Positions 7,758-23,988 of a DNA stretch of 64,000 bases are shown here, one piece after another. Under the pieces are notes generated by a model. It did no database searches. It had not been told where the DNA came from and saw only the letters and a list, made by a program, of their open reading frames with translations. The translations under genes and the position numbers were made by a program. The stretch comes from Streptomyces sp. B21-083 (lineage in GTDB: Bacteria > Actinomycetota > Actinomycetes > Streptomycetales > Streptomycetaceae), in assembly GCF_036898825.1 (NCBI RefSeq), contig NZ_JARUND010000002.1, forward strand, positions 1,798,001 to 1,862,000, in the 5' to 3' direction. Numbering within the stretch: position 1 is the stretch's first letter; each line of letters begins with the position of its first letter.

Positions 7758-8606
7758 ATGGCAGAGCGCCCGGAACGCAGGGCTCCGAAGGCCCACTCCG
7801 CGCAGGTCGTCCGCACCGAGCGACTGACGCCGCACATGCAGCGCGTGGTTCTGGGCGGCGACGGCCTCGCCGAGTTCACCGCCGGCACACGCACCGACCA
7901 CTACGTGAAGCTGCAGTTCCCGGCCGAGGGCGTCACCTACCCGGAGCCCTTCGACATGCAGCGCGTCCGCGAAGAGTTCCCGCGCGACCAGTGGCCCGTG
8001 ACCCGCACCTACACGGTGCGCGCCTGGGACCCCGAACTGCGCGAGCTGACCCTCGACTTCGTCCTGCACGGCGACGAGGGTCTCGCCGGCCCCTGGGCGA
8101 TGCGCGTACAGCCGGGCGAGACGGTCCTCTTCGGCGGCCCCGGCGGGGCGTACGCCCCCGACCCCGACGCCGACTGGCATCTGCTCGTCGGCGACGAGAG
8201 CGCGCTGCCGGCGATCGCCTGCGCCCTGGAGGCGCTGCCCGACGGCGCGAAGGCCTACGCCTTCGTGGAGGTCGCCGGCCCCGAGGAGGAGCAGAAGATC
8301 GACTCCGACGTGGAGGTCCGCTGGCTGCACCGCGGCGAACGCCCCCTCGGCCAGGCCCTCGTCGAAGCCGTGAGCGGCCTGGAGTTCCCCGCGGGCCGGG
8401 TGCAGGCGTTCGTGCACGGCGAGGCGTCCTTCGTGAAGGACCTGCGCCGACTGCTGCGGGTGGAGCACGAGATCCCGCGCGAGGATCTCTCGATCTCCGG
8501 CTACTGGCGCCTCGGCCACAACGAGGACGGCTGGCAGGCGACCAAGCGGGACTGGAACGCACGGGTGGAGGCGGAGCAGGAGGCCGCCGCCCCGACGGCC
8601 TCCTGA
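7758..8606 (+). CDS. Siderophore-interacting protein (SIP, FAD-dependent ferric reductase)
   Basis: A 282-aa flavoreductase of the ViuB/YqjH group, which reduces Fe(III)-siderophore in the cytoplasm to free iron. The FAD-binding barrel comes first (about 10-135, with TRTYTVRAWDPELRELTLDFVLHG, where RxYTVR is the flavin motif), then an NAD(P)H-like domain (HLLVGDESALPAIACALEALP) and the C-terminal signature GYWRLGHNED. ATG 7758 follows AGGGAGG. No siderophore operon is adjacent; the gene stands alone behind an iron-box-like site, so it probably serves siderophores made elsewhere. Confidence 0.92.
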   Translation: MAERPERRAPKAHSAQVVRTERLTPHMQRVVLGGDGLAEFTAGTRTDHYVKLQFPAEGVTYPEPFDMQRVREEFPRDQWPVTRTYTVRAWDPELRELTLDFVLHGDEGLAGPWAMRVQPGETVLFGGPGGAYAPDPDADWHLLVGDESALPAIACALEALPDGAKAYAFVEVAGPEEEQKIDSDVEVRWLHRGERPLGQALVEAVSGLEFPAGRVQAFVHGEASFVKDLRRLLRVEHEIPREDLSISGYWRLGHNEDGWQATKRDWNARVEAEQEAAAPTAS

Positions 8607-8734: not shown

Positions 8735-8958
8735 CAAGCTGTCGGCCACCCCCGAACTCCCCTCCCCCACTCCCCAGTTGGCGGCGTGGAAATCCACCAC
8801 GCCTCCCCGCCCCGCACCTCGAAGCCACCGGCGGGAAGGACCGCCGAGCCGGCGTCGGTCCGCCGAGCCGCCTCACGTCGTCCGGCTGCCGCCGGTACGT
8901 GAGGACTTGGGTCCCGCCCCGACACGGCCACGACATCCCTGCGAAACAGCGCCTCCCT

Positions 8959-8982
8959 AATTTCTGTCACCCGACAGGAATT
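8959..8982. promoter_or_regulatory. TetR-type operator before the APC permease (copy 1)
   Basis: AATTTCTGTC-ACCC-GACAGGAATT, one mismatch between arms, ending 23 bp before the permease GTG. The same site, with the preceding CCT also shared, occurs at 18936-18959 between tetR and the DUF1989/carboxylase operon. Identity of arms, spacer length and left flank supports a common repressor. Confidence 0.75.
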
Positions 8983-9005
8983 ACGCGCCGAAGGCAGGTC
9001 CCGCC

Positions 9006-10538
9006 GTGACCACGACCGCTTCCCCCGACGTACGCCCCGATCCGCCGGATCAGTCCGTCGACCGCTCCCTGGCCGAGTTCGGCTACCCCCAGGAACTGCA
9101 CCGCAGCCTCGGCCGGTACGCCTCGTTCGCCGCCGGGTTCTCCTTCATCTCCGTCCTGACGACGGTCTTCCAGTTCTTCGCCTTCGGATACGCGTTCGGC
9201 GGCCCCGTCTTCTTCTGGGCCTGGCCCGCCGTACTGATCGGCCAGTTGCTGGTCGCCGCGTGCTTCGCGGAACTGGCCGCGCGGTATCCGATCTCGGGTG
9301 CGATCTACCAGTGGTCGTCGCGGCTCTCGAACCTCACCTTCGGCTGGTTCGCCGGCTGGATCATGGTGATCGGGCAGATCGTGGTGGTCGCGGCGGCGGC
9401 GCTCGCGCTCCAGGTCGTCATGCCGGCCATCTGGTCAGGCTTCCAGCTGGTCGGCGACGACCCGGCCCCGACCTCGGCGAGCGGCGCGGCCAACGCGGCG
9501 ATTCTCGGCGTGCTCCTGCTGGCCCTCACCACCTTGGTGAACGTCCTGGACAACCGTGTGATGTCCCTGATCAACCGGGTCGGTGTGACCGCCGAGATCA
9601 TCGGCGCCTTCCTGATCATCGTGCTCCTGTTCACCCACTCCGAGCGCACCCCCGGCATCACCTTCCACACGGGTACGGCACTGCAGTCCGGCCTGACCGG
9701 GGCGCTGCTGGTGGGTTCGTTCACGGCGGCGTACGTGATGATCGGGTTCGACAGCGCGGGCGAGATGAGCGAGGAGACACACCATCCCCGGCGCACCGCA
9801 CCCCGTACGATCCTCACCGCGCTCGCCTCGGCCGGCCTGCTGGGCGGGCTGATCATCCTCGCCGGCCTGCTCGCCGCGCCGAGCCTCACCGACGGCCGGC
9901 TCGGCGTCGAGGGCCTGAGCTACGTCCTGACGAGCAGCCTCGGCGACGGGGTGGGCCGCGCCCTGCTGGTCGACGTGGTGGTGGCCATCGCGGTGGCGAC
10001 GCTCGCGATCCAGACGGCGGCCTGCCGGATGCTGTTCTCGATGGCCCGCGACGGCCAACTGCCGTTCTCGGCCCGCCTCGCGAAGGTCAACCCGCGCACG
10101 GGCATGCCGAACGCCCCCGCCCTGGTCGTCGGCGTTCTGGCGGCGACCCTGCTCCTCCTCAACTTCGCCTCCCCGGAGGCCTTCCTGGCCATCGGCACCA
10201 CCTGCATCGTGATGCTGTACCTGGCGTACGCGATGGTCACCGGCCCCCTCCTCGCCCAGCGCCTGAAGGGCACCTTCACCGCCGACGGCACCGACGAGAC
10301 CGGCAAGCCCCTCTTCTCCCTGGGCCGCTGGGGCATCCCGGTGAACGCCCTCGCCCTCCTCTACGGCCTCTTCATGACCGTCAACCTGGCCTGGCCCCGC
10401 GCGGCGGTGTACGACCCGGCGGGCGGACACTGGTACTTCCAGTGGTTCACCGTGCTGTTCCTTGTGGTCACCGTGGGGGGCGGCGGTTTGTACCGGCTTG
10501 TGCGTGCGCGGCGGGTGCGGTCTGCCGAGAGGACTTGA
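9006..10538 (+). CDS. APC-superfamily amino acid/amine permease
   Basis: A 510-aa transporter with about twelve membrane spans. The N-terminal segment reads ELHRSLGRYASFAAGFSFIS followed by an APC-type first helix; GFDSAGEMSEETHHPRRTAPR lies in the middle, where the amino acid-choline/GABA permease branch has its conserved Glu-rich loop. GTG 9006 is the first start in frame. The operator shared with the TetR/carboxylase operon implies that it imports the nitrogen compound that operon degrades (guanidine, urea or an amide). It is separated from that operon by about 8 kb of unrelated genes. Substrate assignment is inference; family is clear. Confidence 0.88.
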   Translation: MTTTASPDVRPDPPDQSVDRSLAEFGYPQELHRSLGRYASFAAGFSFISVLTTVFQFFAFGYAFGGPVFFWAWPAVLIGQLLVAACFAELAARYPISGAIYQWSSRLSNLTFGWFAGWIMVIGQIVVVAAAALALQVVMPAIWSGFQLVGDDPAPTSASGAANAAILGVLLLALTTLVNVLDNRVMSLINRVGVTAEIIGAFLIIVLLFTHSERTPGITFHTGTALQSGLTGALLVGSFTAAYVMIGFDSAGEMSEETHHPRRTAPRTILTALASAGLLGGLIILAGLLAAPSLTDGRLGVEGLSYVLTSSLGDGVGRALLVDVVVAIAVATLAIQTAACRMLFSMARDGQLPFSARLAKVNPRTGMPNAPALVVGVLAATLLLLNFASPEAFLAIGTTCIVMLYLAYAMVTGPLLAQRLKGTFTADGTDETGKPLFSLGRWGIPVNALALLYGLFMTVNLAWPRAAVYDPAGGHWYFQWFTVLFLVVTVGGGGLYRLVRARRVRSAERT

Positions 10539-10913
10539 TCCGCCGCACGACGGTCGCCGCCGCACAGACAGTGATTCGCCGCGGCCGAGTACCCGAGGGT
10601 GCGGCAGCCGGCCACGGCGACCTGGCTCGGGCCGACGTCCAGTTTCAGTCAGATAATATCTACGGGCGCATTCCAGGTGGCCGATGATGGCCCGTGCGGT
10701 GGCATGACCTCACAGTCGATCCGATATCGGGCCCGCCACATCGTCGAAACTGCAGACCCGCTCAAGACCGGCCACCCTGCCTCAATCCGGCACGGAATCC
10801 GATGCGACAGGGGCGGCCGGTGCTGCTGTGAGGGGAAAGGGCTTGGGAACCGTTGTCAGTGTGGCCAGAACCAGCCATTCCCCAAAGCGCTCGCGCGCCG
10901 CATCATAAGACGC
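10539..10913. other. Gene-free, less GC-rich stretch before the terpene cyclase
   Basis: 375 bp, visibly more AT-rich than the surroundings. It holds an AGATAATATCT palindrome at 10651-10661 and GGCCGATGATGGCC, but no frame with a ribosome site or protein signature. It presumably carries the terpene cyclase promoter. Confidence 0.5.
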
Positions 10914-12029
10914 ATGAATAGCGACACCTCCACGCGGATTTGGTCAGTGCCGAGTGTGTTGTGCCCCTTTCCGGTCACGTACAACGAGCCAGCGGCTCGC
11001 AGGGCGGACGAGGACATAGTCGCTTGGGCGCTGAGCCTTGATCTCTTCCCGGGGCAACGCGCCGAGCTGAACGGATACCGCTTCGGCACTTTCGCCGCGC
11101 TCACACACCCTGACGCGGTCGACCACGATCACCTGATGCTCGTGGCCCGCAACATGACCGCCCTGTTCGCCGCGGACGACCACTACTGCGACGAGGGCAT
11201 AGAAGGCGTCCGCCTCGCCATGAGTGCCTCACGGCTCGCGGGGGCGTTGACCGCGCTGGAGAACGGCGCCCGGCTGCCCGACTGCCCCTCGATCGAGGGC
11301 TTTGTCGGCAGTGACCCAGTGGCGCATGCCCTCCGCGAGACAGCGGAACACATCACACGCTTGGGCACGCCGACGCAAGTAGGCCGTCTGCGCCACGAGA
11401 CAACCGCTACGTTCTTGGCGATGGCGGCGGAAAACTCGTGGCGTATCGCCAGGCACGTTCCCGATCCCGCGGAATACTTGGCTCATCGCAAGTACAACGG
11501 GGCCATGGCATGCCTGGTACTGATCGATGTCGCCGGGGGCTACGAACTGCCCGCCCGCGACTGGGAAGAGCCTGGTGTCCGATCTCTGTCGCTCGCCGCC
11601 TCATTGATGATCATGCTGGTGAACGACTTGTATTCGGTCGCCAAGGAAAGTGCCGACATCGGCAGCCACAGCTTGCCCACAGTGCTCTCCGCACGCCACG
11701 GGTGGTCTCTCGAACGGAGCATGTGCGCGACGGGCGAACTGCACGACAACCTCATGCGTGCCTATCTGCGTCTGGAACCCGATGTCGCGCGCGACGCCTC
11801 GCCCGAACTCACCCGCTATCTCGCCGGACTGCGGCACTGGATGCGGGGGAATCTCGAATGGCACACCCTCACAGGACGACACAACAATCGCGCGGGACGC
11901 CCGACCCCCAAGACAGGACCTGACGGTCCCACCCACGACCGCGTCAAGGACGACAAGCACTACTCGTCCGCCGCAGGTGTCTGTCCCCACTGCGGAGACC
12001 GACACCACTCAGCCACAGCTGTTGCGTAG
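10914..12029 (+). CDS. Class I terpene cyclase
   Basis: A 371-aa bacterial terpene synthase. It has the Asp-rich metal motif DDHYCDE (residues 88-94) and the second metal motif NDLYSVAKE (237-245, ND-x2-S-x3-E), which bind Mg2+ and diphosphate. The C-terminal helix ends WMRGNLEWHTLTGRH, where most bacterial cyclases have an Arg-Tyr pair, here Arg-His. A tail of about 50 residues follows, with a CPHC pair and His residues (GVCPHCGDRHH). ATG 10914 opens the family core, although the frame is open from 10599. No prenyl synthase, methyltransferase or P450 is in its operon, so the product (mono- or sesquiterpene) cannot be told; the DDxYC(D/E) form recalls 2-methylisoborneol-type cyclases, a weak hint. 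Confidence 0.85.
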   Translation: MNSDTSTRIWSVPSVLCPFPVTYNEPAARRADEDIVAWALSLDLFPGQRAELNGYRFGTFAALTHPDAVDHDHLMLVARNMTALFAADDHYCDEGIEGVRLAMSASRLAGALTALENGARLPDCPSIEGFVGSDPVAHALRETAEHITRLGTPTQVGRLRHETTATFLAMAAENSWRIARHVPDPAEYLAHRKYNGAMACLVLIDVAGGYELPARDWEEPGVRSLSLAASLMIMLVNDLYSVAKESADIGSHSLPTVLSARHGWSLERSMCATGELHDNLMRAYLRLEPDVARDASPELTRYLAGLRHWMRGNLEWHTLTGRHNNRAGRPTPKTGPDGPTHDRVKDDKHYSSAAGVCPHCGDRHHSATAVA

Positions 12030-12134
12030 ATGCCCGGAGGAGACCAGCCAGCAGCTCTCTGACCTGCGGCGCGACACCGGCCGGGCGCCAGAGAGTGAGC
12101 CCGGCAGACCGCGCTTCTCATATGCTTGACCGTG

Positions 12135-13076
12135 ATGAGACGCCGCACCCCGCCCCCGCCCTCTCCCCTGCCGCAGCGCGACGGAGTGGATCCGGTGCGC
12201 GTTCGCCTGCCGGCCGGGGATACGTGGCCGACCGTACGAGATCATCTCGATGCTCGGCTCGCGGCAGGGGCCGGCGTCATCGACGAAATGCTCGACGCGG
12301 GCCTGATCGTGGACATCGCCGGGCGTCCGGTGCCGCGGGACATGGCGTATGTGCCGGGGATGTTCGTCTGGTTCCACCGGGAGCTGCCCGATGAGGAACA
12401 GGTGCCCTTCCCGGTCGACGTCCTGTACCGGGACGATCACGTGGTGGTGGCCGACAAGCCTCATTTTCTGGCCACCATCCCGCGCGGCAGCCATGTCGCC
12501 GAGACGGCCCTGGCCCGGCTGCGAAGGCAGCTGGGCATCCCGACTCTCGGCGCGGCACACCGACTGGACCGGCTGACGGCCGGGGTGGTGCTGTTCACCG
12601 TGCGACCCGAGGAACGCGGCGCGTATCAGTCGCTGTTCCGGGACAAGCGGGTGACGAAGGAGTACGAGTCCGTGGCGCCGTACGATCCCGCGCTGGCCCT
12701 GCCCCGCACCGTACACAGCCGGATCGTCAAGGAGCGCGGGGTCATGGCGGCCCGCGAGGTCGAGGGCGAGCCCAATGCCGTCAGCCGGATCGAGTTGCTG
12801 GAGCACGGGTACGGGCGTGCCCGGTACCGGCTGATGCCACGTACCGGGCAGACGCACCAACTAAGGGTGCACATGAGCGCGTTGGGGGTGCCGATCCTCG
12901 GCGATCCCCTCTATCCGGAAGTCACCGGCCCTGTGGCGGCAGGTGACTTCCGCCGTCCGCTCCAACTACTGGCGCGGGTCCTTGAGTTCACCGATCCGGT
13001 CACGGGCCGCGAGCACCGGTTCGTCAGCCCACGGGTGCTGCGGGCCTGGTCGTCGTACCACGAGTGGGCCGGATAG
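12135..13076 (+). CDS. RluA-family RNA pseudouridine synthase
   Basis: About 313 aa. The catalytic aspartate lies in GAAHRLDRLTAGVVL, the RluA motif (HRLDxxTSG type), followed by KRVTKEYES and the C-terminal RTGQTHQLRVHMSALGVPILGDPLY signature. It isomerises uridine to pseudouridine in rRNA or tRNA; the target base is unknown. ATG 12135 was preferred to the adjacent GTG and TTG; no clear ribosome site precedes any of them. It converges on the P450 gene, with 18 bp between stops. Confidence 0.88.
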   Translation: MRRRTPPPPSPLPQRDGVDPVRVRLPAGDTWPTVRDHLDARLAAGAGVIDEMLDAGLIVDIAGRPVPRDMAYVPGMFVWFHRELPDEEQVPFPVDVLYRDDHVVVADKPHFLATIPRGSHVAETALARLRRQLGIPTLGAAHRLDRLTAGVVLFTVRPEERGAYQSLFRDKRVTKEYESVAPYDPALALPRTVHSRIVKERGVMAAREVEGEPNAVSRIELLEHGYGRARYRLMPRTGQTHQLRVHMSALGVPILGDPLYPEVTGPVAAGDFRRPLQLLARVLEFTDPVTGREHRFVSPRVLRAWSSYHEWAG

Positions 13077-13094
13077 CCCCGGTGCCCGGTCGGC

Positions 13095-14579
13095 TCAGTC
13101 GCCGCGCCACCAACGCAGCAGACGCCGGAACACGCCCGGTCGGCGCGCCGGTTCGGGTGCCGACGTCGACTCGGGCTCGCCGGCCGGGACCCCAGGCCCC
13201 GACGCCGTGTGCTGCGGCTGCTCCGTGCCGACCTGCCAGTTGTCCGGGCGCTGTGACGGCACCGGCCTGACGCCGGGGTTCTCCATGACCTCCTGCGGGG
13301 ACCTCGGCGCGAACTTCACCGGCAGTTCCACCAGGTGGCGATTCGCGACGGACGACCGCCAGCGCAACTCATCCTCATCACAGGCGAGTTGGATGTCGGG
13401 AACGCGGGTCAGCAGCGCGTCGACGCCGACGTCGGCGATGGCGCGGCCGATGTCCTGGCCCGGGCACTCGTGCGGGCCGCCGCTGAACGCGAGGTGGGAG
13501 CGGTTGCCCTGCATGTTGGCTTCGAGATCGGGGCGGACCCGCGGGTCGACGTTGCCCGGTGCGATGCCCAGGAGCAGTCCGTCACCCTTGCGGATGCGCT
13601 GGCCGCCCAGCTCGGTCTCCTGCTTGGCGATGTAGGCGAAGACCGTGCTGAACGGCGGCTCGTCCCACAGGGACTGTTCGACCGCTTCGGGCACCGTCAT
13701 CTGGCCGCCGTTGAGCCGGGCACGGAACCCGGGGTTGGTGAGCACTTGCCGCAGTACATTGGCGAGCAGGTTGGCGGTGCTCTCGTACGCGACGATCAGG
13801 ACGACGCGCAGGTGCTGGCCGATCTCCTCGTCGTCGAGGCCCGCCGGGTGGTTGATGAGGTGGCTGGTGAAGTCGTCCTCGGGCTCGGCCCGGCGGCGGG
13901 CGGTGAGCCGCATCAGGGCGTCCATGACGTACTGGTTGCTTGCGATCGCGGTCTCGGTGCCCTTGAGCATGTCGCGGGCGGCCTGCACGATCCGGTCGCC
14001 GTACTCCTCGGGCATGCCGAGGATCTCGCACATCACTGCCATCGGCAGATGCTCGGCGAACTGGCTGACCAGGTCGGCGCTGCCCTCCGTACAGAACTTG
14101 TTGACGAGGTGCTGGGTCGCGCGGTTGATGTAGCGGCGGATGCCTCGGTTGTCGATGGTCGACATGGCGCCGGTGACCGCGCCGCGCAGCCGCAGGTGCT
14201 CGTCGCCCTCGGTGTGGCTGCAGATGGGCTGCCGTGCGAAGTGCGGCATGAGCGGGTGGTCGGGCTTGACCGTCCCGTCCCGCATGGGCGTCCACAGACG
14301 GCTGTCCTTGCAGTACTGCGACGGGCTGCGCACCATGTGCATGTTCTCGCCATGCCCCAGCACCACCCAGATCGGCACGTCGTCATGGAGCAGCGCGGGG
14401 GCCACCGCGCCGTGTTCGGCGCGGAGTTTCTCGTACACGGCTCCCAGGTCCTCGGCCTCGGGGCCGTACAGCCGGCGCAGGCCGCCGGGGCCGGTGCCCA
14501 TGCCGTGGGCGGGGCAGCCGGGGGGTGGGCTGAGGTCGGTGTCGGCCGTGCCGGTCAGGGAGTGGGGGTCAGGCGTCAC
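13095..14579 (-). CDS. cvnE: Conservon-associated cytochrome P450 lacking ExxR (CYP156/157-like)
   Basis: A 494-aa P450. The heme-ligand loop is intact (FSGGPHECPG, Cys372). The I-helix oxygen motif reads AYEST near 265-269 in place of the usual AGxxT. The K-helix, normally ExxR, reads EQSLW at 301-305, so both conserved residues are replaced. The same EQSLW was reported for CYP157C1 of S. coelicolor (recalled), so this is a family trait rather than decay. A Pro/Glu/Ser-rich C-terminal tail of about 55 residues follows the P450 fold. GTG 14579 is the start. It is last in the conservon, 73 bp after the GTPase. In S. coelicolor the matching set (rarA-rarE) affects aerial development. Confidence 0.87.
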   Translation of the reverse strand: MTPDPHSLTGTADTDLSPPPGCPAHGMGTGPGGLRRLYGPEAEDLGAVYEKLRAEHGAVAPALLHDDVPIWVVLGHGENMHMVRSPSQYCKDSRLWTPMRDGTVKPDHPLMPHFARQPICSHTEGDEHLRLRGAVTGAMSTIDNRGIRRYINRATQHLVNKFCTEGSADLVSQFAEHLPMAVMCEILGMPEEYGDRIVQAARDMLKGTETAIASNQYVMDALMRLTARRRAEPEDDFTSHLINHPAGLDDEEIGQHLRVVLIVAYESTANLLANVLRQVLTNPGFRARLNGGQMTVPEAVEQSLWDEPPFSTVFAYIAKQETELGGQRIRKGDGLLLGIAPGNVDPRVRPDLEANMQGNRSHLAFSGGPHECPGQDIGRAIADVGVDALLTRVPDIQLACDEDELRWRSSVANRHLVELPVKFAPRSPQEVMENPGVRPVPSQRPDNWQVGTEQPQHTASGPGVPAGEPESTSAPEPARRPGVFRRLLRWWRGD

Positions 14580-14652
14580 TGTGATCGCTCCGAAATGAAG
14601 TGGATCCGGTGTCAGAAGAGTTGATGGTGTGCTGGGTTGCCGGTGGCCGCGC

Positions 14653-15273
14653 TCAGACGGACGCCTTCGTCATCTCCAGCGAGTGCAGAAAGCGCATCAG
14701 CGTCATGAGCGTGTCCCGGCTGGAGGCCCGCCTGCGTGCGTCGCACTCCACGATGGGGATCTCCGGGGCCAGGTCGAGGGCCGAGCGCAGGTCCTCGACC
14801 GGGTAACGGGGCGCGTCCGGGAAGGAGTTGACGGCGATGACGAAGGGCACGCCCCGTTCCTCCAGTCGCCCTATGACGTCGAAGCTCACTTCCAGGCGCC
14901 GGGTGTCGATCAGGACGACCGCGCCGAGGGCGCCTTCGAACAGGCCGTTCCACAGGAACCAGAAGCGTTCCTGGCCCGGGGTGCCGAACAGGTAAAGGAC
15001 CAGTTGGTCGGTGATGCTGATGCGGCCGAAGTCCATGGCCACGGTGGTGGCCGTCTTGGAATCGGAGCCGTAGTTGTCGTCGACGCCGATGCCGGCCTGC
15101 GTCATGGTCTCTTCGGTGGTCAGCGGCCTGATCTCGCTCACCGAGCCGACCATGGTCGTCTTGCCGACGCCGAATCCGCCCACGATCACGATCTTCACCG
15201 CGGCCTGGGTGCTCGACGGCAGGCGGTCCTCGGTCCGTGGGCCCGGGATGGTGTCAGAGCTTTTGAAGTCCAT
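14653..15273 (-). CDS. cvnD: Conservon GTPase CvnD
   Basis: A 206-aa Ras-like GTPase of the actinobacterial conservon type. P-loop GGFGVGKTT (32-40), a switch region around ETMTQAGIGVDD and FGTPGQERFWFLW as the G3 motif. The G4 position reads VNSFPDA in place of NKxD, as in relatives. Conservons resemble eukaryotic G-protein relays: CvnB and CvnC are thought to meet CvnD at the membrane-bound CvnA. Its ATG (15273) lies inside the end of cvnC, overlapping by 20 bp, implying coupled translation. Confidence 0.9.
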   Translation of the reverse strand: MDFKSSDTIPGPRTEDRLPSSTQAAVKIVIVGGFGVGKTTMVGSVSEIRPLTTEETMTQAGIGVDDNYGSDSKTATTVAMDFGRISITDQLVLYLFGTPGQERFWFLWNGLFEGALGAVVLIDTRRLEVSFDVIGRLEERGVPFVIAVNSFPDAPRYPVEDLRSALDLAPEIPIVECDARRRASSRDTLMTLMRFLHSLEMTKASV

Positions 15274-15727
15274 GCATCACCGCTTCGAGGAGGGAACGGT
15301 CGGCGAGCGACTCGCGGATGAGCGGGTAGCGCGCCTGGACCAGTTCGGCCGTCAGCAGCTCGGTGAGCAGGACGGTCACCACGCTGAACGGCAGGTTGAG
15401 GTATGCCGAGAGCTCGGCCACGGACAGAGGGTCCTTGCAGAGGCGGAGCAGCGCCGACTGCTCCGGCGGAGCGGCGGGCGGGGGCTCGGCGCACGCCACG
15501 ATTAACGTGACGAGGTCGAGGGAGGCTCGCTCGCCGCCCTGGGCCGCGCCGGTGAGCACATAGAGCCGTTCGGGGTTCTTGCGCTCCCCTTCCTTGGGCT
15601 CCCCTTCCTTGCCCGCCGCGCCCTCTTGGCCTGCTGCGCCCTCCGCGGCGACCGTGCTCTGCTGAAGCAGCTCGGGCGGAGGTTCCTGCTTGACGGGGTA
15701 GCGCCGTCGGCGCTGCGGAGGAGTCAT
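15254..15727 (-). CDS. cvnC: Conservon DUF742 protein CvnC
   Basis: 157 aa. A Gln/Glu/Gly-rich N-terminal third leads into the DUF742 domain (ERLYVLTGAAQGGERASLDL about 55-75, then a winged-helix-like ALLRLCKDPLSVAELSAYLN). This family is the usual third member of conservons and probably bridges the roadblock protein and GTPase. ATG 15727 overlaps the cvnB stop as ATGA, so reinitiation is expected. The longer upstream frame is a shadow of cvnB. Confidence 0.88.
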   Translation of the reverse strand: MTPPQRRRRYPVKQEPPPELLQQSTVAAEGAAGQEGAAGKEGEPKEGERKNPERLYVLTGAAQGGERASLDLVTLIVACAEPPPAAPPEQSALLRLCKDPLSVAELSAYLNLPFSVVTVLLTELLTAELVQARYPLIRESLADRSLLEAVMHGLQKL

Positions 15728-16131
15728 ACGGTCTGCCCGTTCCGCCGGGGCGGACTGGTGAGGTGGGCGCCGATGCGGACGACGAGGTCGCGCATGTGGT
15801 TGCTCATGTTGCCGGGTTCGGCGACCACGTTGGCGAGGACCGCGAGATAGGCGTTGGGGCCGGCGGCCATCAGGTAGAAGTAGCCGCCGGTGACCTCGAT
15901 GATGACCATGCGCATCGTGCCGTCGCTGTCCGGGATCTCGTGCGCGACGGCGCCGGCGAGGCTCTGCAGCCCCGCACAGGCGGCGGCGACACGGTCGGCG
16001 GCGTCGGGGTCGCCGCCGTAGCGCGCGATGCGCAGGCCGTCGGCGGAGAGCACCACGATCTGCTGGATGCCGGGTACGCCGTCGGCGAGCTCCTTGAGCA
16101 TCCAGTCGAAGTTGGCTCGCTGCGAGATCAC
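15724..16131 (-). CDS. cvnB: Conservon roadblock/LC7 protein CvnB
   Basis: A 135-aa roadblock/LC7 domain covering the whole protein (FDWMLKELADGVPGIQQIVVL at the start; GYFYLMAAGPNAYLAVLA later). In MglB-like systems such proteins act as GTPase-activating or scaffolding partners, and CvnD downstream is the obvious client. GTG 16131 overlaps the stop of cvnA (GTGA). Confidence 0.9.
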   Translation of the reverse strand: MISQRANFDWMLKELADGVPGIQQIVVLSADGLRIARYGGDPDAADRVAAACAGLQSLAGAVAHEIPDSDGTMRMVIIEVTGGYFYLMAAGPNAYLAVLANVVAEPGNMSNHMRDLVVRIGAHLTSPPRRNGQTV

Positions 16132-17873
16132 TTGAGGTCCCCCTCGTCGTCGGCCTCAGCGTGGGCCGGCTGCTGGTTGGTCGCACTCGCGGCGGTCGGG
16201 TCTTCCCGGTGGCCGCCGAAGGCCGCTTGGTCGTCCGGGTGACGGCCGAGGGCCGTGGGGTCGGCGGCCGGGAACGCGGTGAAGTCGACCGCGTCGTCCG
16301 GGTGGCCGGAGAACATCTTCGGGTCGTCGGGGTTCCTGGTGAAGGCCGTGGGGTCCGGGTCGCCCTTGAGGCCCTCCATGAACGCCTCGACCCACAGGCC
16401 GGGCAGGGGTTCGTCGTCCTTTTTCTTCTTCTGCGACTTGGGCTCCCACAGTTTGCGGAGCTCGGGGTCGGCCTCCAACGCGGCCTCGGACGCCCTGGAC
16501 CGGGCGTACCGCTCGCTCAGCGGGGTCTTGACCCGGCTGCGGCGCTGCGGCAGACCGTTCTCGGTCCACTCGGTGACCTCCGGGACGTCGTCCTCCATGG
16601 AGACCGACGCCGGGATCCGCGGGCCCGTCGTGGGGCGGCGCTTCTTGGGCGGGCGCTTGGGGCCTTCCAGCGCACCGAGTTCGATCTTGGGCGCGGCGGT
16701 GGCGCCGATGCCGTGGGCGAGTCCGGGCGCGGGGTCGCCGGTGAGCATGTCGGACGGCACGACCAGTACGGCGCGGACACCGCCGTACGCGGACTGCCTG
16801 AGCGAGATCTGCATCTTGTACGACTCGCAGAGGCGCCCTACGACCGCCAGGCCGAGGCGCGGGGACTCTCCGAGGTCGTTGAGGTCGAAACCGGCCTGGG
16901 CGCGGGCGATCATGACCTCGGCGCGCTTGCGGGACTCCTCGCTGAGGCTGACGCCGGCGTCCTCGATCTCGATGGCGATGCCGGTCTGCACCTCGGTCGC
17001 GGTGACATGCACCTTGGTGTGGGGCGGCGAGTAGCGCGTGGCGTTGTCGAGGAGTTCGGCCGCGGCGTGGATGAGCGGTTCGACGGAGTTGCCGTCGACG
17101 TTGACCTTCGCGATGGAACTCAGGTCGATACGCCGGTACTCCAGGATCCGGGACATCGCGCCGCGCAGCACGCTGTACAGCGCGACGGGCTGGGGCCACT
17201 GGCGCCCGGGCCGGCCGCCGCCGAGCACGGAGATGGAGTCGGCGAGGCGGCCGATCAGCGCGGTGCCGTGGTCGATGCGCAGGAGGTCGTCGAAGACCTC
17301 GGGGTTGCGGCCGTGGTCCTCCTCCATCTCCCGGAGTTCGTTGGCCTGCTGGTGGACGATCGCCTGAACGCGCCGGGCGATGCTGACGAACGCGCGCTGC
17401 GCGCCGTCCCGCATGGACTCCTCGCGGTCGATGATCTCCAGGACCCGCTCCAGCAGTTTGCGCTGCGGAACCGGGAGTTCGCGGTACGGGGAGTCCGGTC
17501 CACGCAGTTCGCGAATCACCCCTGAGGGTGAACCGGCGACGCGCAGCAGATGGAGCCCGTACGGCAGGACTTCTGTGCCGAACCGGAGGAACTCCTCGTC
17601 GTGGGCGGCGATGCGCCGCTCCAGATACGCGGTGTGACGGGCGTGCTCGGCCCGCAGACCACGGACGGTACGGCCACGGCGGACCACTTCGGCGGCGACC
17701 GCGACGACCAGGACCGTGGCGATGGCTCCGCACCAGCCGACGGCGGCGCGGACCGGCCCGGTCACCAGGGCGGCGGCGGCTCCGGTCGCGCCGGCCATTG
17801 CTATGGCAGGCAGCAACAGCACGCGCGCGTAGGGAAGTTCACGGCCACCGGGAGGCGATTGAACACTCACCAT
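16128..17873 (-). CDS. cvnA: Conservon sensor histidine kinase-like protein CvnA
   Basis: 581 aa with two adjacent membrane segments (about 18-38 and 42-62), a dimerisation/linker region, a nitrate-sensor-like ATPase domain (ELLDNATRYSPPHTKVHV as N-box, then IEIEDAGVSLSEE and RLGLAVVGRLC as G-boxes), and a long charged, disordered tail. A phosphoacceptor His of the HisKA type is not obvious, in line with CvnA proteins acting as membrane platforms. ATG 17873 follows AGAGGG at 7 nt; the frame runs on to 17984 without signal. It heads the five-gene conservon, in which each junction up to cvnD overlaps. Position next to the helicase/tat region suggests the cvn9/rar set of S. coelicolor. Confidence 0.88.
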   Translation of the reverse strand: MVSVQSPPGGRELPYARVLLLPAIAMAGATGAAAALVTGPVRAAVGWCGAIATVLVVAVAAEVVRRGRTVRGLRAEHARHTAYLERRIAAHDEEFLRFGTEVLPYGLHLLRVAGSPSGVIRELRGPDSPYRELPVPQRKLLERVLEIIDREESMRDGAQRAFVSIARRVQAIVHQQANELREMEEDHGRNPEVFDDLLRIDHGTALIGRLADSISVLGGGRPGRQWPQPVALYSVLRGAMSRILEYRRIDLSSIAKVNVDGNSVEPLIHAAAELLDNATRYSPPHTKVHVTATEVQTGIAIEIEDAGVSLSEESRKRAEVMIARAQAGFDLNDLGESPRLGLAVVGRLCESYKMQISLRQSAYGGVRAVLVVPSDMLTGDPAPGLAHGIGATAAPKIELGALEGPKRPPKKRRPTTGPRIPASVSMEDDVPEVTEWTENGLPQRRSRVKTPLSERYARSRASEAALEADPELRKLWEPKSQKKKKDDEPLPGLWVEAFMEGLKGDPDPTAFTRNPDDPKMFSGHPDDAVDFTAFPAADPTALGRHPDDQAAFGGHREDPTAASATNQQPAHAEADDEGDLK

Positions 17874-18200
17874 GTATGCCCTCTGAGACAAATCGGCTGG
17901 GTTGGGGGAGCTTGCTGTGGGGTACGTCTGGGAACTGTCTGGATCTTCGGTATTTTTGGGAACAAGCGCACGAATACATCCCAACTCGGTGCGCTGCGGG
18001 CGAGCTTAGTCCGACCGGATCAACGCCGTGTCATATTCGGCAAGCCCCTGAAATGCCCCTTGCGAGTGGAGTACCCTCGGCCCATTTGCACGCTGCGGAT
18101 GCAATCAAACACATTGCGTAACGACGCACGGGCGTACGAAGGGCACTCACCGTGACGGGTGAACGCGGGCCTCCGGAAGGGCCCGGGCCCGCCCCTGCCC
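17874..18200. other. Gene-free stretch between conservon and tetR
   Basis: 327 bp upstream of cvnA, comparatively AT-rich (17930-18120). It presumably holds the conservon promoter. No ORF or clear dyad stands out. Confidence 0.5.
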
Positions 18201-18836
18201 TCAGATACCGGCGATGCGCAGTGCCGCGTCCGCCGCGGCTTCCGCGAAGACGGCGACCGGGCGCTCGGGGCCGGAGCGGTGCACGAGGATGACGCCCTCG
18301 ATCAGCCCGAAGAGCAGATCCGTCCGCAGTTCCAGCTCACCCTTGGCGAGCACTCCCCCGGTGGCCGTCGCGGCGAGCAACTGCCGGTAGGCGTCCTTGA
18401 GTTCGGCCCGTACGGCGTGGAAACCGGCGAAGCGTTCGGCACGCACCTCGGGGAGGAGGTAGAGACCCCCGAGGTTGTACGGGCCGCCGCAGAGCAGCTC
18501 GACGTCGGTGCGGCACAGCTTCCACAACCGGCCCTCGGCCGGGGCGGCGTCGTCGGCCAGCAGCCCGCGGGCGTACGTCAACGAGGGCGTGACGGTGGAC
18601 TCCAGGAGCTCGGCGAGCAGCTCCTCCTTGCCGGAGACGTAGTGGTACATGGACGCCTGACGCATCCCCGCCCGCTCGGCAATGGTCCGGGTGGTGGTGG
18701 CCGCGTAGCCGCGGGTGGTGAACAACTCGGCGGCCGCGGTGAGGAGTTCCGCACGCGGGGCGAGCCCGCTGTCCGGCCGCTGCGCGGCCCGCGGCCTGCC
18801 GACCCGCCGTCCGCCCGGCCCGCCCGTCGTTCCCAT
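18201..18836 (-). CDS. TetR-family repressor of the DUF1989/carboxylase regulon
   Basis: A 211-aa TetR protein. The HTH lies at about residues 30-75 (TRGYAATTTRTIAERAGMRQASMYHYVSGKEEL split over two helices), followed by an all-helical ligand domain. The frame runs upstream past 19200, but ATG 18836 begins just before the HTH. Its start is 100 bp from the dyad at 18936-18959, which also faces the divergent nitrogen operon, and the same dyad occurs before the permease at 8959. Autoregulation and control of both targets is the simplest reading; the inducer (guanidine, carboxyguanidine, urea, allophanate) is unknown. Confidence 0.87.
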   Translation of the reverse strand: MGTTGGPGGRRVGRPRAAQRPDSGLAPRAELLTAAAELFTTRGYAATTTRTIAERAGMRQASMYHYVSGKEELLAELLESTVTPSLTYARGLLADDAAPAEGRLWKLCRTDVELLCGGPYNLGGLYLLPEVRAERFAGFHAVRAELKDAYRQLLAATATGGVLAKGELELRTDLLFGLIEGVILVHRSGPERPVAVFAEAAADAALRIAGI

Positions 18837-18935
18837 GCGTTCGATCCTCGCACACAGCCCGGCCGGATGATCTCCGTGAGCGATCGGTAACCAGGCGGCA
18901 ACACACGGGCAACGCCGGCGTCTCGGCGCCCGCCT

Positions 18936-18959
18936 AATTTCTGTCGGGCGACAGAAATT
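18936..18959. promoter_or_regulatory. TetR-type operator before the DUF1989 operon (copy 2)
   Basis: AATTTCTGTC-GGGC-GACAGAAATT, perfect 10-bp arms, 75 bp before the first DUF1989 gene and 100 bp before tetR. Twin of the site at 8959-8982. Confidence 0.8.
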
Positions 18960-19034: not shown

Positions 19035-19859
19035 ATGGGGACATCGACCACGTACGGAGCCCGCGATCACGCCCGCGCCCAGGAGGGCGCCCAGGCGGAG
19101 GCCATGCCCGTCGTCCCGGCCGCCGACTGGCCCGCACCGCCCTGCGCGGCGGGCCATCTGGTGTGGGCCGAGACAGTGGCGGGCGGCAACTACACGCACC
19201 GGGTCCTGGCCCGCGGCACCGAGCTGCGCCTGACCGACCTGCGCGGGGACGCCTGCGCCCATCTACTGCTCTTCGTCGCGGACCGGCCCTGGGAGCGGCT
19301 GAACGTCGCCGACACGGTCAAGGTCCAGTGGAACGCGTACCTCGGAGAGGGGCAGTTGCTGCTCTCCGACCAGGGCCGTGTCCTCGCCTCGCTGGTCGCC
19401 GACACCTCCGGGCGCCACGACGCGCTGTGCGGCACCTCGACCCTCGTGCGCAACACGAACCGGTACGGCGACGGCACCCCGCAGTCGCCCTCCCCCGCCG
19501 GCCGTGAGCTGTTCAAGCTGGCCGCGGCCAAGAACGGCCTCCAGCCGCGCGATCTGCCGCCCTCACTCTCGTTCTTCCAGGGCGTGGAGGTACGCGAGGA
19601 CGGCTCCCTCGACTTCACCGGCTCGGCCGGACCGGGCGGCAGTGTGACGCTGCGCGCCGAGCAGGACGTCACGGTGCTGATCGCGAACGTCCCGCACCCC
19701 GCCGACCCGCGCGACGACTACGTGAGCACCCCGCTGGAGGTGCTGGCCTGGCGCGCCGAGGCGACCCACCCCGGCGACCCCCTGTGGGAGGCCACTCCCG
19801 AGGGCCGCCGCGCGTTCCTCAACACCGCCGAATTCCTTGCCGCGAGGGGGCTCGTATGA
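19035..19859 (+). CDS. DUF1989 urea/guanidine-carboxylase-associated protein 1 (CgdB-like)
   Basis: 274 aa of the DUF1989 family (urea amidolyase-associated protein UAAP1). Conserved stretches include GNYTHRVLARGTELRLTDL and GRHDALCGTSTLVRNTNRYG. In Pseudomonas the UAAP1/UAAP2 pair was shown to be a carboxyguanidine deiminase (CgdAB), hydrolysing carboxyguanidine from guanidine carboxylase to allophanate and ammonia (recalled literature). ATG 19035 follows CCGGAGGACCC. It opens a tightly overlapping operon with the second DUF1989 gene and the carboxylase. Confidence 0.85.
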   Translation: MGTSTTYGARDHARAQEGAQAEAMPVVPAADWPAPPCAAGHLVWAETVAGGNYTHRVLARGTELRLTDLRGDACAHLLLFVADRPWERLNVADTVKVQWNAYLGEGQLLLSDQGRVLASLVADTSGRHDALCGTSTLVRNTNRYGDGTPQSPSPAGRELFKLAAAKNGLQPRDLPPSLSFFQGVEVREDGSLDFTGSAGPGGSVTLRAEQDVTVLIANVPHPADPRDDYVSTPLEVLAWRAEATHPGDPLWEATPEGRRAFLNTAEFLAARGLV

Positions 19860-20476
19860 CCACGCCGACCGTCCGCAAAGCCATCGTTCCCGCCCGCGCC
19901 GCCTGGTCGTCCGTCGTCCGCGCCGGTGGGACGCTGACCATCACCGACCTGCACGGCAACCAGGCCGTCGACTTTCTCGTGTACGACGCCCACGACACAT
20001 CCGTGCGCTACAGCGCGCCCGACACGATCCACGCCCAGGGCGGTGTCTTCCTCACCACCGGCAGTGTCCTCATGTCGAACGAGCACACGGCCCTGATGAC
20101 CGTGGCCGCCGACGACGTGGGCCGCCACGACACGGTCGGCGGTGCCTGCTCCAAGGAGTCGAACACCCTGCGGTACGGCCATCACACCTGGTCGCAGCAC
20201 GCGTGCGTGGACAACTTCCTCGCCGAGGGCGTCAAACACGGCCTGGGCAAAAGGGACTTGGTCTCCAACATCAACTGGTACATGAACGTGCCGGTGGAGA
20301 AGGACGGCACGCTGGGCATCGTCGACGGTCTCTCGGCGCCGGGGCTCTCGCTCACGCTCCGAGCCGAGCGCGATGTCCTGGTCCTCGTCTCCAACTGCCC
20401 CCAGATCAACAACCCCTGCAACGGCTTCGACCCGACCGAGGTGGAGATGACCATCACCGAGGCGGGCACGGCATGA
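19856..20476 (+). CDS. DUF1989 urea/guanidine-carboxylase-associated protein 2 (CgdA-like)
   Basis: 206 aa, paralogous to the preceding gene and of the UAAP2 group. Recognisable features are GNQAVDFLVYDAHDTSVRYS, GRHDTVGGACSKESNTLRYG (the conserved Cys/His-bearing segment) and SNINWYMNVPV. It probably forms the catalytic pair with its neighbour as carboxyguanidine deiminase. ATG 19856 overlaps the upstream stop (ATGA), and its own stop overlaps the carboxylase start the same way, so the three proteins are likely made in fixed ratio. Confidence 0.86.
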   Translation: MTTPTVRKAIVPARAAWSSVVRAGGTLTITDLHGNQAVDFLVYDAHDTSVRYSAPDTIHAQGGVFLTTGSVLMSNEHTALMTVAADDVGRHDTVGGACSKESNTLRYGHHTWSQHACVDNFLAEGVKHGLGKRDLVSNINWYMNVPVEKDGTLGIVDGLSAPGLSLTLRAERDVLVLVSNCPQINNPCNGFDPTEVEMTITEAGTA

Positions 20477-23400
20477 CCTTCGACACGCTGCTGGTCGCCA
20501 ACCGGGGCGAGATCGCCGTGCGCATCATCCGTACGGCACGGGAGCTGGGCCTGCGCACGGTCGCGGTCTACTCCGACGCCGACCGCTCCGCCCCGCACGT
20601 CCGGCTCGCCGACGAAGCGGTGCGGCTCGGTCCGGCGCCCGCGAAGGAGTCGTATCTCGACGCCGACCTGGTGCTGGCGGCGGCCAAGGTGACGGGCGCG
20701 GGAGCGATCCATCCCGGGTACGGCTTCCTCTCCGAGGACGCCGACTTCGCGCGCCGCTGCGAGGACGCCGGGATCGTGTTCGTGGGGCCGACGCCCGGCC
20801 AGTTGGAACTGTTCGGCGCGAAGCACACGGCCCGGGCGGCGGCGGAGGCGGCCGGCGTGCCCCTCGCACCCGGCACCGGACTGCTGGCCTCCCTCGACGA
20901 GGCGTACGCGCGAGCCGCGGCCATCGGCTATCCCGTGATGCTCAAGGCGACCGGCGGGGGCGGTGGCATCGGCATGTCGGCCTGTGCCTCGGCCGCCGAA
21001 CTCGCCGACGCCTGGGAGCGGGTGCAGCGCGTCGCCGCCGCCTCCTTCTCCTCGGCCGGCGTCTTCCTGGAACGGCTCGTCGAACACGCCCGCCATGTCG
21101 AGGTGCAGGTCTTCGGCGACGGCGAGGGCCGGGTCGTCACCTTCGGCGACCGCGACTGCTCGCTCCAGCGCCGCAACCAGAAGGTGGTGGAAGAGGCTCC
21201 GGCCCCCGGGATCCCCGCGCTCGTGCGCGCCCAACTGGCCTCCGCTGCACGCGACTTGTGTGCATCAGTCGGCTACCGCTCCGCCGGAACAGTGGAGTTC
21301 GTGTACGACGCGGCCCGCGAGGAGGCCTACTTCCTGGAGGTCAACACCCGCCTCCAGGTGGAACATCCGGTGACGGAGGAGATCTACGGCGTCGACCTCG
21401 TCGCCTGGATGCTGCGGCTGGCCCGGGGTGAACGGGACGTCGTACGCGACCCGGGCACCCCTCGCGGTCACGCCGTCGAGGCCCGTGTCTACGCCGAGGA
21501 CCCCTCGCGCGAACACCGGCCCAGCGCGGGCCTGTTGACCCGGGTCGAGTTCCCGGGCGGGGTGCGGATCGACGGCTGGGTGGAGACGGGCACCGAGGTG
21601 ACCACGTCGTACGACCCGATGCTCGCGAAGGTGATCGCGTTCGGCGCCGACCGGGAGCACGCGCTGCGCCGGCTCGACGAGGCGCTGGCCCGTACCCGGG
21701 TCGACGGCATCGAGACGAACCTCGGCCTGGTACGGGCGGCGCTCGCGAACCAGGACTTCCGCTCAGCGACACACTCGACGGCGACCCTCGCCGAGGTGAG
21801 CGATCCGACTCCGCGCATCGAGGTCGTCTCCGGCGGGACGCTCACCACGGTCCAGGACTGGCCGGGCCGCACCGGCTACTGGCAGGTGGGCGTGCCTCCG
21901 TGCGGCCCGATGGACGACCGCTCGTTCCGGCTCGGCAACCGCGCCCTGGGCAACGACGAGGGCGCCCCTGGCCTCGAATGCACCCTCCAGGGCCCGTCGT
22001 TGAGGTTCACCCATCCCACGACGGTGTGTGTGACTGGGGCTCCGGCGCCGGTCACCCTGGACGGCACGCCGGTCGCCCAGTGGGAGCCGGTCACGGTCCC
22101 GGCGGGTGCCGTACTGGCGATCGGCGCCCCGACGGAACAGGGCCTGCGGACCTACGTGCTCTTCGCCGGCGGCGGCCTGGACGTGCCGCCTTTCCTCGGC
22201 AGCGCGGCCACCTTCACCCTGGGCAAATTCGGCGGGCACGGGGGACGGGCGCTGCGCACGGGCGACGTACTGCACGGCGGTGCGGCGGCGGAGTCAGGAA
22301 CTCCGGTACCCCAGTCCGACCGCCCCGAGTTCGCCTCCCCCTGGCACCTCGGCGCCGTCGAAGGCCCGCACGCGGCACCGGAGTTCTTCACCGAGGAGGA
22401 CATCCACGACTTCTACGCGGCCGACTGGAAGGTCCACTTCAACTCGGCCCGCACGGGCGTACGGCTGGTCGGTCCCAAGCCCCGCTGGGCGCGTACCGAC
22501 GGGGGTGAGGCGGGCCTGCACCCGTCCAACATCCATGACACGCCGTACTCCGTGGGCGCCGTCGACTACACCGGCGACATGCCGGTCCTGCTGGGCCCGG
22601 ACGGCCCCTCGCTCGGCGGCTTTGTGTGCCCGGCGACCGTCCTCAGCACGGAACGCTGGAAACTGGGCCAGCTTCGCCCCGGCGACACGGTCCGCTTCGC
22701 ACCGGTGGACACAACAGGCGTACAGCGAGCGGCGATTGTGGACGGGGGCGTCCTGGCCCGGGACGGCGACATCACGTACCGCCGCAGCGGCGACGACAAT
22801 CTGCTCGTCGAATTCGGGCCCATGCAACTGGACCTGGCGCTCCGGATGCGTGTCCACGCCCTGATGGAGGCGGTGACGGAGCTGGACCTGGCCGGGGTGA
22901 GGGACCTGACACCGGGTATCCGCTCCCTCCAGATCCAGGCGGACCCGGCCGTACTCCCCCAGCCCGAACTCCTCGCCGCGATACGGCGGACAGCCACGTC
23001 CCTACCCCCCGCGGACCACCTCACGGTCCCCTCCCGCACGGTCCACCTCCCCCTCTCCTGGGACGACCCGGCGACCCGCGAGGCGATCGCCCGCTACATG
23101 GCGGGCGTCCGCGACGACGCCCCCTGGTGCCCGTGGAACATCGAGTTCATCCGCCGTGTGAACGGTCTGGACTCGGTCGACGACGTGTACCGCACGGTCT
23201 TCGACGCGGAGTACCTCGTACTGGGCCTGGGCGACGTCTACCTGGGCGCCCCGGTGGCAACCCCGCTCGACCCCCGCCACCGCCTGGTGACGACGAAGTA
23301 CAACCCGGCCCGGACCTGGACGGCCGAGAACTCGGTGGGCATCGGCGGCGCCTACCTCTGCGTCTACGGCATGGAGGGCCCCGGCGGCTACCAGTTCGTC

Positions 23401-23988
23401 GGCCGTACGACCCAGGTGTGGTCGGGCTGGCAGCAGCGCGGCGCGTTCGAGCCGGGCTCACCGTGGCTGCTGCGGTTCTTCGACCGCATCAAGTGGTACG
23501 CCGTCGAGCCGGACGAACTCCTCGACCTGCGCGCCGACATCACCTCGGGCCGCTTCGTCCCCCGCATCGAGGAGGGCGTCTTCTCCCTCGCGGAATACGA
23601 GGAGTTCCTGACGGAGAACGCCGAGTCGATAGCGGAGTTCCGCTCCCGCCAGGGCGCGGCCTTCTCGACGGAACGGGACGCCTGGGAGGCGGCGGGCGAG
23701 TTCACACGCGCGGAGGCGGCCACGGCACCTCCCGCCCCTGTCGCCGAGGTGACGATCCCGGCAGGCGGCCACCTGATCGAGGCCGAGTTCGCCGCGTCGG
23801 TATGGCAGTTGAACGTGTCTCCGGGCGACGAGGTGACAGCGGGCCAGCCGCTCCTGGCCCTGGAGGCGATGAAGATGGAGTCCCGGATACACGCCCCGAT
23901 CACAGGAGTGGTCCACGAGATCCTGACCAGACCGGGCGCCCAGGTGGAGGCGGGCACGGCATTGATCGTCCTGACCCCGGCCCCCTAG
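20473..23988 (+). CDS. Biotin-dependent urea or guanidine carboxylase
   Basis: A single-chain 1171-aa biotin enzyme. Order: biotin carboxylase (about 1-450; LVANRGEIAVRIIRTARELG, GGGGGIGM ATP loop, FLEVNTRLQVEHPVTE), carboxyltransferase built of AHS2/AHS1 (KipA/KipI-like) halves (about 475-1010; GLHPSNIHDTPYSVGAVDYTGD), linker, and a C-terminal biotinyl domain with EAMKMES, where Lys1134 carries biotin. It carboxylates urea to allophanate or guanidine to carboxyguanidine at ATP cost. Two DUF1989 genes in the same operon favour guanidine. The substrate-selecting residue of the carboxyltransferase must be aligned to decide. ATG 20473 overlaps the previous stop. Allophanate hydrolase follows after 184 bp. 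Confidence 0.9.
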   Translation: MTFDTLLVANRGEIAVRIIRTARELGLRTVAVYSDADRSAPHVRLADEAVRLGPAPAKESYLDADLVLAAAKVTGAGAIHPGYGFLSEDADFARRCEDAGIVFVGPTPGQLELFGAKHTARAAAEAAGVPLAPGTGLLASLDEAYARAAAIGYPVMLKATGGGGGIGMSACASAAELADAWERVQRVAAASFSSAGVFLERLVEHARHVEVQVFGDGEGRVVTFGDRDCSLQRRNQKVVEEAPAPGIPALVRAQLASAARDLCASVGYRSAGTVEFVYDAAREEAYFLEVNTRLQVEHPVTEEIYGVDLVAWMLRLARGERDVVRDPGTPRGHAVEARVYAEDPSREHRPSAGLLTRVEFPGGVRIDGWVETGTEVTTSYDPMLAKVIAFGADREHALRRLDEALARTRVDGIETNLGLVRAALANQDFRSATHSTATLAEVSDPTPRIEVVSGGTLTTVQDWPGRTGYWQVGVPPCGPMDDRSFRLGNRALGNDEGAPGLECTLQGPSLRFTHPTTVCVTGAPAPVTLDGTPVAQWEPVTVPAGAVLAIGAPTEQGLRTYVLFAGGGLDVPPFLGSAATFTLGKFGGHGGRALRTGDVLHGGAAAESGTPVPQSDRPEFASPWHLGAVEGPHAAPEFFTEEDIHDFYAADWKVHFNSARTGVRLVGPKPRWARTDGGEAGLHPSNIHDTPYSVGAVDYTGDMPVLLGPDGPSLGGFVCPATVLSTERWKLGQLRPGDTVRFAPVDTTGVQRAAIVDGGVLARDGDITYRRSGDDNLLVEFGPMQLDLALRMRVHALMEAVTELDLAGVRDLTPGIRSLQIQADPAVLPQPELLAAIRRTATSLPPADHLTVPSRTVHLPLSWDDPATREAIARYMAGVRDDAPWCPWNIEFIRRVNGLDSVDDVYRTVFDAEYLVLGLGDVYLGAPVATPLDPRHRLVTTKYNPARTWTAENSVGIGGAYLCVYGMEGPGGYQFVGRTTQVWSGWQQRGAFEPGSPWLLRFFDRIKWYAVEPDELLDLRADITSGRFVPRIEEGVFSLAEYEEFLTENAESIAEFRSRQGAAFSTERDAWEAAGEFTRAEAATAPPAPVAEVTIPAGGHLIEAEFAASVWQLNVSPGDEVTAGQPLLALEAMKMESRIHAPITGVVHEILTRPGAQVEAGTALIVLTPAP

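Follow-up and report, generated by a model that had tools for sequence, protein, structure and literature searches.

A predicted AmtR regulon joining a distant permease to a carboxylase operon in Streptomyces sp. B21-083, most likely serving guanidine

Introduction

A stretch of 64,000 nucleotides from Streptomyces sp. B21-083 (contig NZ_JARUND010000002.1, positions 1,798,001 to 1,862,000; hereafter the window) contains two copies of one inverted repeat, one before a permease gene and the other before a distant operon for a biotin-dependent carboxylase, which raises the question of what protein would bind both and what compound the two transcription units would serve. The protein encoded beside the operon, a member of the TetR family, is an ortholog of AmtR as judged by its solved relatives, and the two units very probably form a Streptomyces AmtR regulon serving guanidine as a nitrogen source. 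The regulon is real, conserved and, as given, ordinary; it is not new, since an AmtR gene set with the same arrangement has been tabulated for Streptomyces avermitilis. What is added here is the guanidine reading of the pathway, GlnR-like half-sites standing in one register at both promoters, and a one-base difference in the permease operator.

Results

The operator pair and its regulator

The dyad AATTTCTGTC-N4-GACAGRAATT is found without mismatch at 8959-8982 (...CACCCGACAGGAATT) and at 18936-18959 (...CGGGCGACAGAAATT), so the claim of a preliminary description of this DNA that one operator occupies both places is exact. The common left flank CCT that it mentioned likewise adjoins both copies, and a wider left flank, CCTAATTT, is also common to them. 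The genome-wide search that it proposed as a check gave no scattered unrelated copies: with up to three mismatches allowed, the dyad occurs in the whole genome (10,497,244 bases, five contigs) at these two places only. The pair is not a product of chance, because in addition to this uniqueness the reversed pattern had no match in the same genome at the same tolerance, and the dyad never appeared in 100 dinucleotide-shuffled versions of the window. With a shorter 22-mer, these two places are again found at no mismatch, plus one at two mismatches and six at three; the control has five places. The third-best dyad-like place of the genome, C2:1508481-1508502 with two mismatches, is a possible weak extra target; it is also the nearest candidate for a further genomic site, and nothing past the two was convincing.

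Among solved structures, the window TetR protein is best matched by AmtR 5e57 (E = 2.2e-37), and two others named AmtR, 5mqq and 6gy3, follow at 2.4e-29 and 9.5e-29. Matches at about 1e-31 were obtained with 5dy1, 5dy0 and 5dxz, which are labelled only as TetR family and which we take to be Corynebacterium glutamicum AmtR. The next solved structure, 2iai (1.4e-12), is weaker than the AmtR/TetR group by some 16 orders of magnitude. The window combines the traits of an AmtR-type system, namely the relation to solved AmtR, the core CTGTC-N4-GACAG before the targets, and the set of permease, urf1/urf2, carboxylase and amidase genes. Residues 59-62 and 64 of AmtR, presumed to belong to the recognition helix, are identical in 30-32 of 32 AmtR sequences, and D111, N121, Y126, E130, F139, R143, Y150 and E180 in 31 or 32 of them. 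In three other loci (L144, L146 and L151) AmtR copies of family f4 stand away from the operon, and some 60-80 bp upstream of each lies a perfect TTTCTGTC-N4-GACAGAAA, as for autoregulation.

Conservation of both sites

The 80 named loci analysed, most of them from Streptomyces, are the best 80 of 89 in a scan by the TetR protein; the closest named relative encountered is S. turgidiscabies Car8, with 97% identity in TetR and 99% in UAAP1. The 80 loci contain 136 perfect CTGTC-N4-GACAG cores, two in 59 loci, one in 18 and none in three, and every one of the 136 precedes either UAAP1, the first gene of the operon, or the permease gene, one gene each. Where a perfect site is lacking, the operon site has one change (L028 and L080), only an operon remnant with no site is left (L067), tetR lies close to the end of a contig (L010 and L044), or the locus stops at the permease start (L027 and L063). 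Six further loci, L015, L017, L020 and L022 among them, have no permease or only its 3′ part. The site before the permease is found within about 150 bp of the estimated start, apart from L062 and L059 (468 and 826 bp), and in the 58 loci with both sites these are separated by 2.6 to 10.7 kb, with a median of 8.5 kb. All 78 named loci holding UAAP1 have tetR within 1.5 kb of it, the loci having been found by TetR itself.

The footprint set comprised 74 operon and 61 permease sites, the operon site of L082 being left out because its UAAP1 match begins late. Both site types share the core CCTAATTTCTGTC-N4-GACAG and differ in the base that follows: all 74 operon sites have A there, and 60 of the 61 permease sites have G. 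This type-specific base suggests that a difference in affinity is maintained, and the imperfect arm of the permease operator may let the permease open first.

The regulator, the operators and the carboxylase also occur together across genomes. In 394 Actinomycetes genomes, with E values up to 1e-150 for the carboxylase (two best candidates scored per genome) and up to 1e-25 for AmtR, the carboxylase is found in 45 genomes, AmtR in 43 and both in 36 (Fisher 1.7e-35). A set of 30 Streptomyces genomes, selected by handle, was scanned for operator dyads. Both sites are present at 0-1 mismatch in each of the ten that combine a close AmtR with the carboxylase, and G348, whose AmtR is distant (46%), shows two-mismatch places only. 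No dyad at 0-1 mismatch was found in any of the 15 genomes without AmtR, nor in G143, G332, G363 and G378, which have AmtR and no carboxylase match; two genomes in each of these groups have one place at two mismatches. Both operators persist in G182 even with amtR some 1.15 Mb distant. The proposal of the preliminary description that a small TetR regulon links the distant permease to the operon, with binding predicted, is thus supported by the genome-wide uniqueness of the dyad, the conservation of both sites, their co-occurrence with the regulator and published work on orthologs.

Substrate of the pathway

The operon has the features of a guanidine-carboxylase pathway: an Asp in the substrate site of the carboxylase, both subunits of a deiminase, which we take UAAP1 and UAAP2 to be, and an allophanate hydrolase. 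In an alignment with urea amidolyase 5i8i, whose structure is solved, Asp698 of the carboxylase stands opposite Asn 1330, numbered from that alignment, and residue 1330 is presumably the position meant by the published Asp/Asn rule. According to this rule (PMC12186494, in a passage giving no residue number), Asp marks guanidine carboxylases and the equivalent residue of urea carboxylases is Asn, and a guanidine pathway with a heteromeric deiminase has been described (PMC11410670; these papers and those below are cited for the passages concerned).

Asp is found in 74 of the 75 named loci that hold a carboxylase, and Asn in the remaining one. Likewise, in the 394-genome set all 36 carboxylase genomes with AmtR have the Asp type together with UAAP1/UAAP2, whereas in all nine without AmtR only the Asn type was found; a separate search of these nine revealed no UAAP1 at E 1e-10 and no TetR protein closer than 8.6e-13 (34% identity), and the Asn-type carboxylases of the whole set have no UAAP1/UAAP2 alongside. 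The simple probability for the association of Asp/Asn with AmtR, 1.1e-9, overstates the case because seven of the nine genomes without AmtR belong to one genus; the contrast holds also within genera g31 and g65. Two genomes, G031 and G361, carry both carboxylase types, and their AmtR stands beside the Asp-type one.

The permease adds a further clue, as a guanidine-I riboswitch directly precedes permeases 54-59% identical to it in G085 and G022, and precedes deiminase genes in G015. Permeases of the amino-acid-permease (APC) family under guanidine-I control are predicted guanidine importers (PMC11410670). Taken together, the Asp residue, the co-occurrence of AmtR and UAAP genes, the riboswitch-linked homologous permeases and the reports on APC importers favour guanidine over urea, and guanidine is the most likely substrate of the predicted pathway. 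Elsewhere, L209, L210, L211 and L213 have distant carboxylases with Met for the expected Asp/Asn, three of them riboswitch-linked, and L212 and L214 (G113 and G192) show a run of UAAP1, UAAP2 and allophanate hydrolase with no carboxylase match in the fetched 13 kb.

The 64-kb window itself contains no guanidine riboswitch match, the riboswitch being a frequent and not a defining trait of the pathway. In the fetched stretches (39 of 40 searched; L232, with amtR only, was left out) the riboswitch reaches the Rfam gathering score only in L209 and L210, and L211 has a guanidine-I match at the cut-off in other scans and not in this one. Guanidine-I was matched in 35 of the 394 genomes, 14 of them over the cut-off under stricter filters, which lose weak matches. 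The 45 carboxylase genomes include only three with a match (G200, G337 and G383), which in each case falls short of the cut-off and lies in another part of the genome. The notion that a genome has either AmtR or the riboswitch and never both was dropped, as these three together with G049 and G290 have AmtR and a guanidine-I match.

Promoter architecture

In both promoters a TAATTT hexamer resembling a -10 element overlaps the left arm of the operator (Table 1); no common -35-like hexamer was found in the unique upstream sequences at spacers of 16-19. Four GlnR-like half-sites spaced every 11 bp lie at equal distance upstream of both operators and in one register, which is the best of 17 compared at both promoters. 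The pair GTNAC-N6-GNAAC (a-n6-b) is present upstream of the operon in 65 of 73 sequences and upstream of the permease in 35 of 61, with a maximum of one in shuffles. The GlnR consensus used for comparison was gTnAc-n6-GaAAc (PMC10704036). A scan of the genome for this consensus with up to three mismatches returned five places and none for the control; one of the five precedes a glutamine synthetase frame and another overlaps a frame for an ammonium transporter at its upstream end, so the consensus works in this genome. From this layout we infer activation by GlnR combined with steric repression by AmtR over the -10 element.

Features of the window

Table 1 Features of the predicted regulon in the window. 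The starts of the four operon genes were refined from the sequence.
Feature	Position	Strand	Remarks
Putative activator site of the permease, GlnR-like box	8910..8947	+	Four half-sites every 11 bp (GGTCC, GACAC, GACAT, GAAAC)
TAATTT of the permease, presumed -10-like hexamer overlapping operator left arm	8958..8963	+	60/61 unique upstream sequences
Predicted AmtR operator of the permease	8959..8982		Permease type (GACAG followed by G)
APC permease, TIGR03428-like, predicted guanidine importer	9006..10538	+	Amino-acid-permease family
amtR ortholog, TetR-family repressor (by homology)	18201..18836	-	Divergent from the operon
Putative activator site of the operon, GlnR-like box	18887..18924	+	Four half-sites every 11 bp (GTAAC, GCAAC, GCAAC, GTCTC)
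TAATTT of the operon, presumed -10-like hexamer overlapping operator left arm	18935..18940	+	73/73 unique upstream sequences
Predicted AmtR operator of the operon	18936..18959		Between amtR and the divergent operon; operon type (GACAG followed by A)
UAAP1/DUF1989, carboxyguanidine deiminase subunit type	19035..19859	+	TIGR03425 313 bits, cut-off 206; DUF1989 by Pfam
UAAP2, carboxyguanidine deiminase subunit type	19856..20476	+	TIGR03424 325 bits, cut-off 285
Biotin-dependent carboxylase annotated as urea carboxylase, predicted guanidine type (Asp698)	20473..23988	+	TIGR02712 1838 bits, cut-off 1304
Allophanate hydrolase	24173..25846	+	184 bp past the carboxylase; TIGR02713 708 bits, cut-off 511

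Between the dyads lie genes for a terpene synthase and a pseudouridine synthase, and a conservon-like set of minus-strand genes for HATPase, Roadblock, DUF742 and ATP-binding proteins together with a P450-like gene, a gene content that agrees with the terpene cyclase, pseudouridine synthase and conservon described before. A gene for a siderophore-interacting protein (7758-8606) stands just upstream of the permease, and a Streptomyces-metH RNA is found on the minus strand at 62999-63118 (112.8 bits).

Discussion

The predicted regulon would operate as follows. An AmtR dimer on each of the two near-identical operators would cover the -10 element and the presumed start of both promoters and so repress the permease and the operon. 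Under nitrogen shortage, GlnR on the four-half-site box just upstream of each operator would activate both, and an inducer, most simply guanidine or a product of the pathway, would bind AmtR and open the two units. The permease would then import guanidine, the carboxylase would convert it to carboxyguanidine, UAAP1/UAAP2 would deiminate this to allophanate, and the hydrolase would release ammonia. The enzyme steps are taken from papers, as are the repression by AmtR and the dependence on GlnR in Mycobacterium smegmatis; the binding in this strain, the guanidine substrate of this permease, the inducer and the extension of GlnR activation to Streptomyces we infer.

Several observations weigh against this scheme. 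The carboxylase of L082 (Kitasatospora sp. DSM 101779) has Asn despite the presence of deiminase genes, AmtR and both operators. The permease scores 651 bits for TIGR03428 (urea carboxylase system permease), below the cut-off of 740, the riboswitch-linked permeases of other genomes scoring 651 and 687 bits. The carboxylases of the riboswitch-linked systems in G085, G022 and G015 are distant, falling below the 1e-150 limit, and have Met at the aligned position, and the Asp/Asn rule therefore does not extend to that clade. A second carboxylase could be missed where only the two best candidates per genome were scored, and seven of 349 genomes without a carboxylase at E 1e-150 have an AmtR-like protein. 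As for GlnR, the boxes of the window each miss the 18-position consensus at five positions, and neither promoter is among the five places of the genome scan.

An alternative that we consider unlikely is that the same AmtR regulon serves urea, the permease importing urea or an amino acid for a urea carboxylase and allophanate hydrolase route. Such a function would agree with the family names (TIGR02712, TIGR03424/5, TIGR03428), with published work, which speaks of urea, and with the Asn of L082, but it accounts poorly for the Asp in 74 of 75 named loci, for the Asn-type carboxylases that have no adjoining UAAP1/UAAP2 and the genomes with only this type that have neither AmtR nor UAAP1 (394-genome set), and for the riboswitches linked to homologous permeases; urea also failed to release AmtR in M. 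smegmatis (PMC4222082).

Less probable still is binding of the dyad by some other TetR protein, with amtR standing beside the operon by coincidence. The genus Streptomyces is rich in TetR proteins, binding of AmtR to the dyad is a prediction in this strain, and four genomes (those named above) have AmtR-like proteins and no dyad at 0-1 mismatch; however, the published AmtR core is identical, tetR accompanies UAAP1 in all the loci that hold it, though these were found by TetR, the dyad pair is missing at 0-1 mismatch from all 15 Streptomyces without AmtR, and the presumed recognition-helix residues are nearly constant among AmtR sequences. A recent duplication of a promoter segment with no maintained regulon, which the common left flank CCTAATTT would fit, has hardly any probability in view of the 58 named loci that keep both sites; moreover, the two site types differ in the conserved base that follows GACAG and in their spacer consensus, and the upstream consensus sequences differ except around the 11-bp half-sites.

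If the AmtR regulon does serve guanidine, the obvious ligand would be one that is not among the AmtR effectors named in the cited part of the M. smegmatis paper (PMC4222082), making guanidine a candidate inducer, and this would agree with the finding that no AmtR-type operon examined has a guanidine riboswitch next to it. A wider proposal, on which we are evenly divided, is that in actinobacteria AmtR is the protein equivalent of the guanidine riboswitch: outside Corynebacterium it would originally have served to repress guanidine uptake and degradation, with guanidine or an intermediate as the inducer, both promoters would be composites activated by GlnR and repressed by AmtR, and the permease operator would be kept imperfect so that the importer opens first. 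A literature search, with subscription papers outside its coverage, found no paper joining an AmtR regulator to guanidine.

The AmtR regulon of S. avermitilis has the same layout as the window, with the operator core CTGTC-N4-GACAG in both. Gel shifts at both intergenic regions were reportedly made there by Chen et al. in 2013. Its genes are the permease sav6709, the carboxylase sav6698, the amidase sav6697 and amtR sav6701, with amtR opposed and the permease elsewhere (PMC4222082). The 22-bp consensus with this core, cited to Chen et al. 2013 (Microbiology 159:2571) in PMC8864220, has TAT as outer bases versus AATTT in the window. The same source names five species in which glnR and amtR are both present, S. 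avermitilis and M. smegmatis among them, and the part of it cited here reports no small-molecule effector of AmtR as identified (PMC8864220). In a salinomycin-producing Streptomyces, the sigma factor SigW represses a urea carboxylase/allophanate hydrolase pair (SLNWT_1828/1829) along with nitrogen genes (PMC10345050).

In M. smegmatis, as predicted here, AmtR represses a permease, a carboxylase and an amidase, and its small regulon is nested under GlnR: loss of AmtR raises these transcripts, and loss of GlnR abolishes nitrogen control (PMC4222082). There AmtR regulates itself, microarrays revealed no further targets according to the cited passages, and neither urea nor several amino acids released it (PMC4222082). 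The system differs in that amtR is unlinked and in being described as urea metabolism (Petridis 2016 as cited in PMC10704036). The C. glutamicum AmtR is likewise a TetR-family regulator, there of nitrogen genes, but it controls 35 genes, is released by GlnK and has the cited site CTAT-N6-ATAG (PMC8864220). Finally, although control lies with an RNA in the guanidine-I riboswitch operons with an APC permease and the window has no guanidine riboswitch, these operons similarly place a permease and a guanidine-degrading enzyme under one control (PMC11410670).

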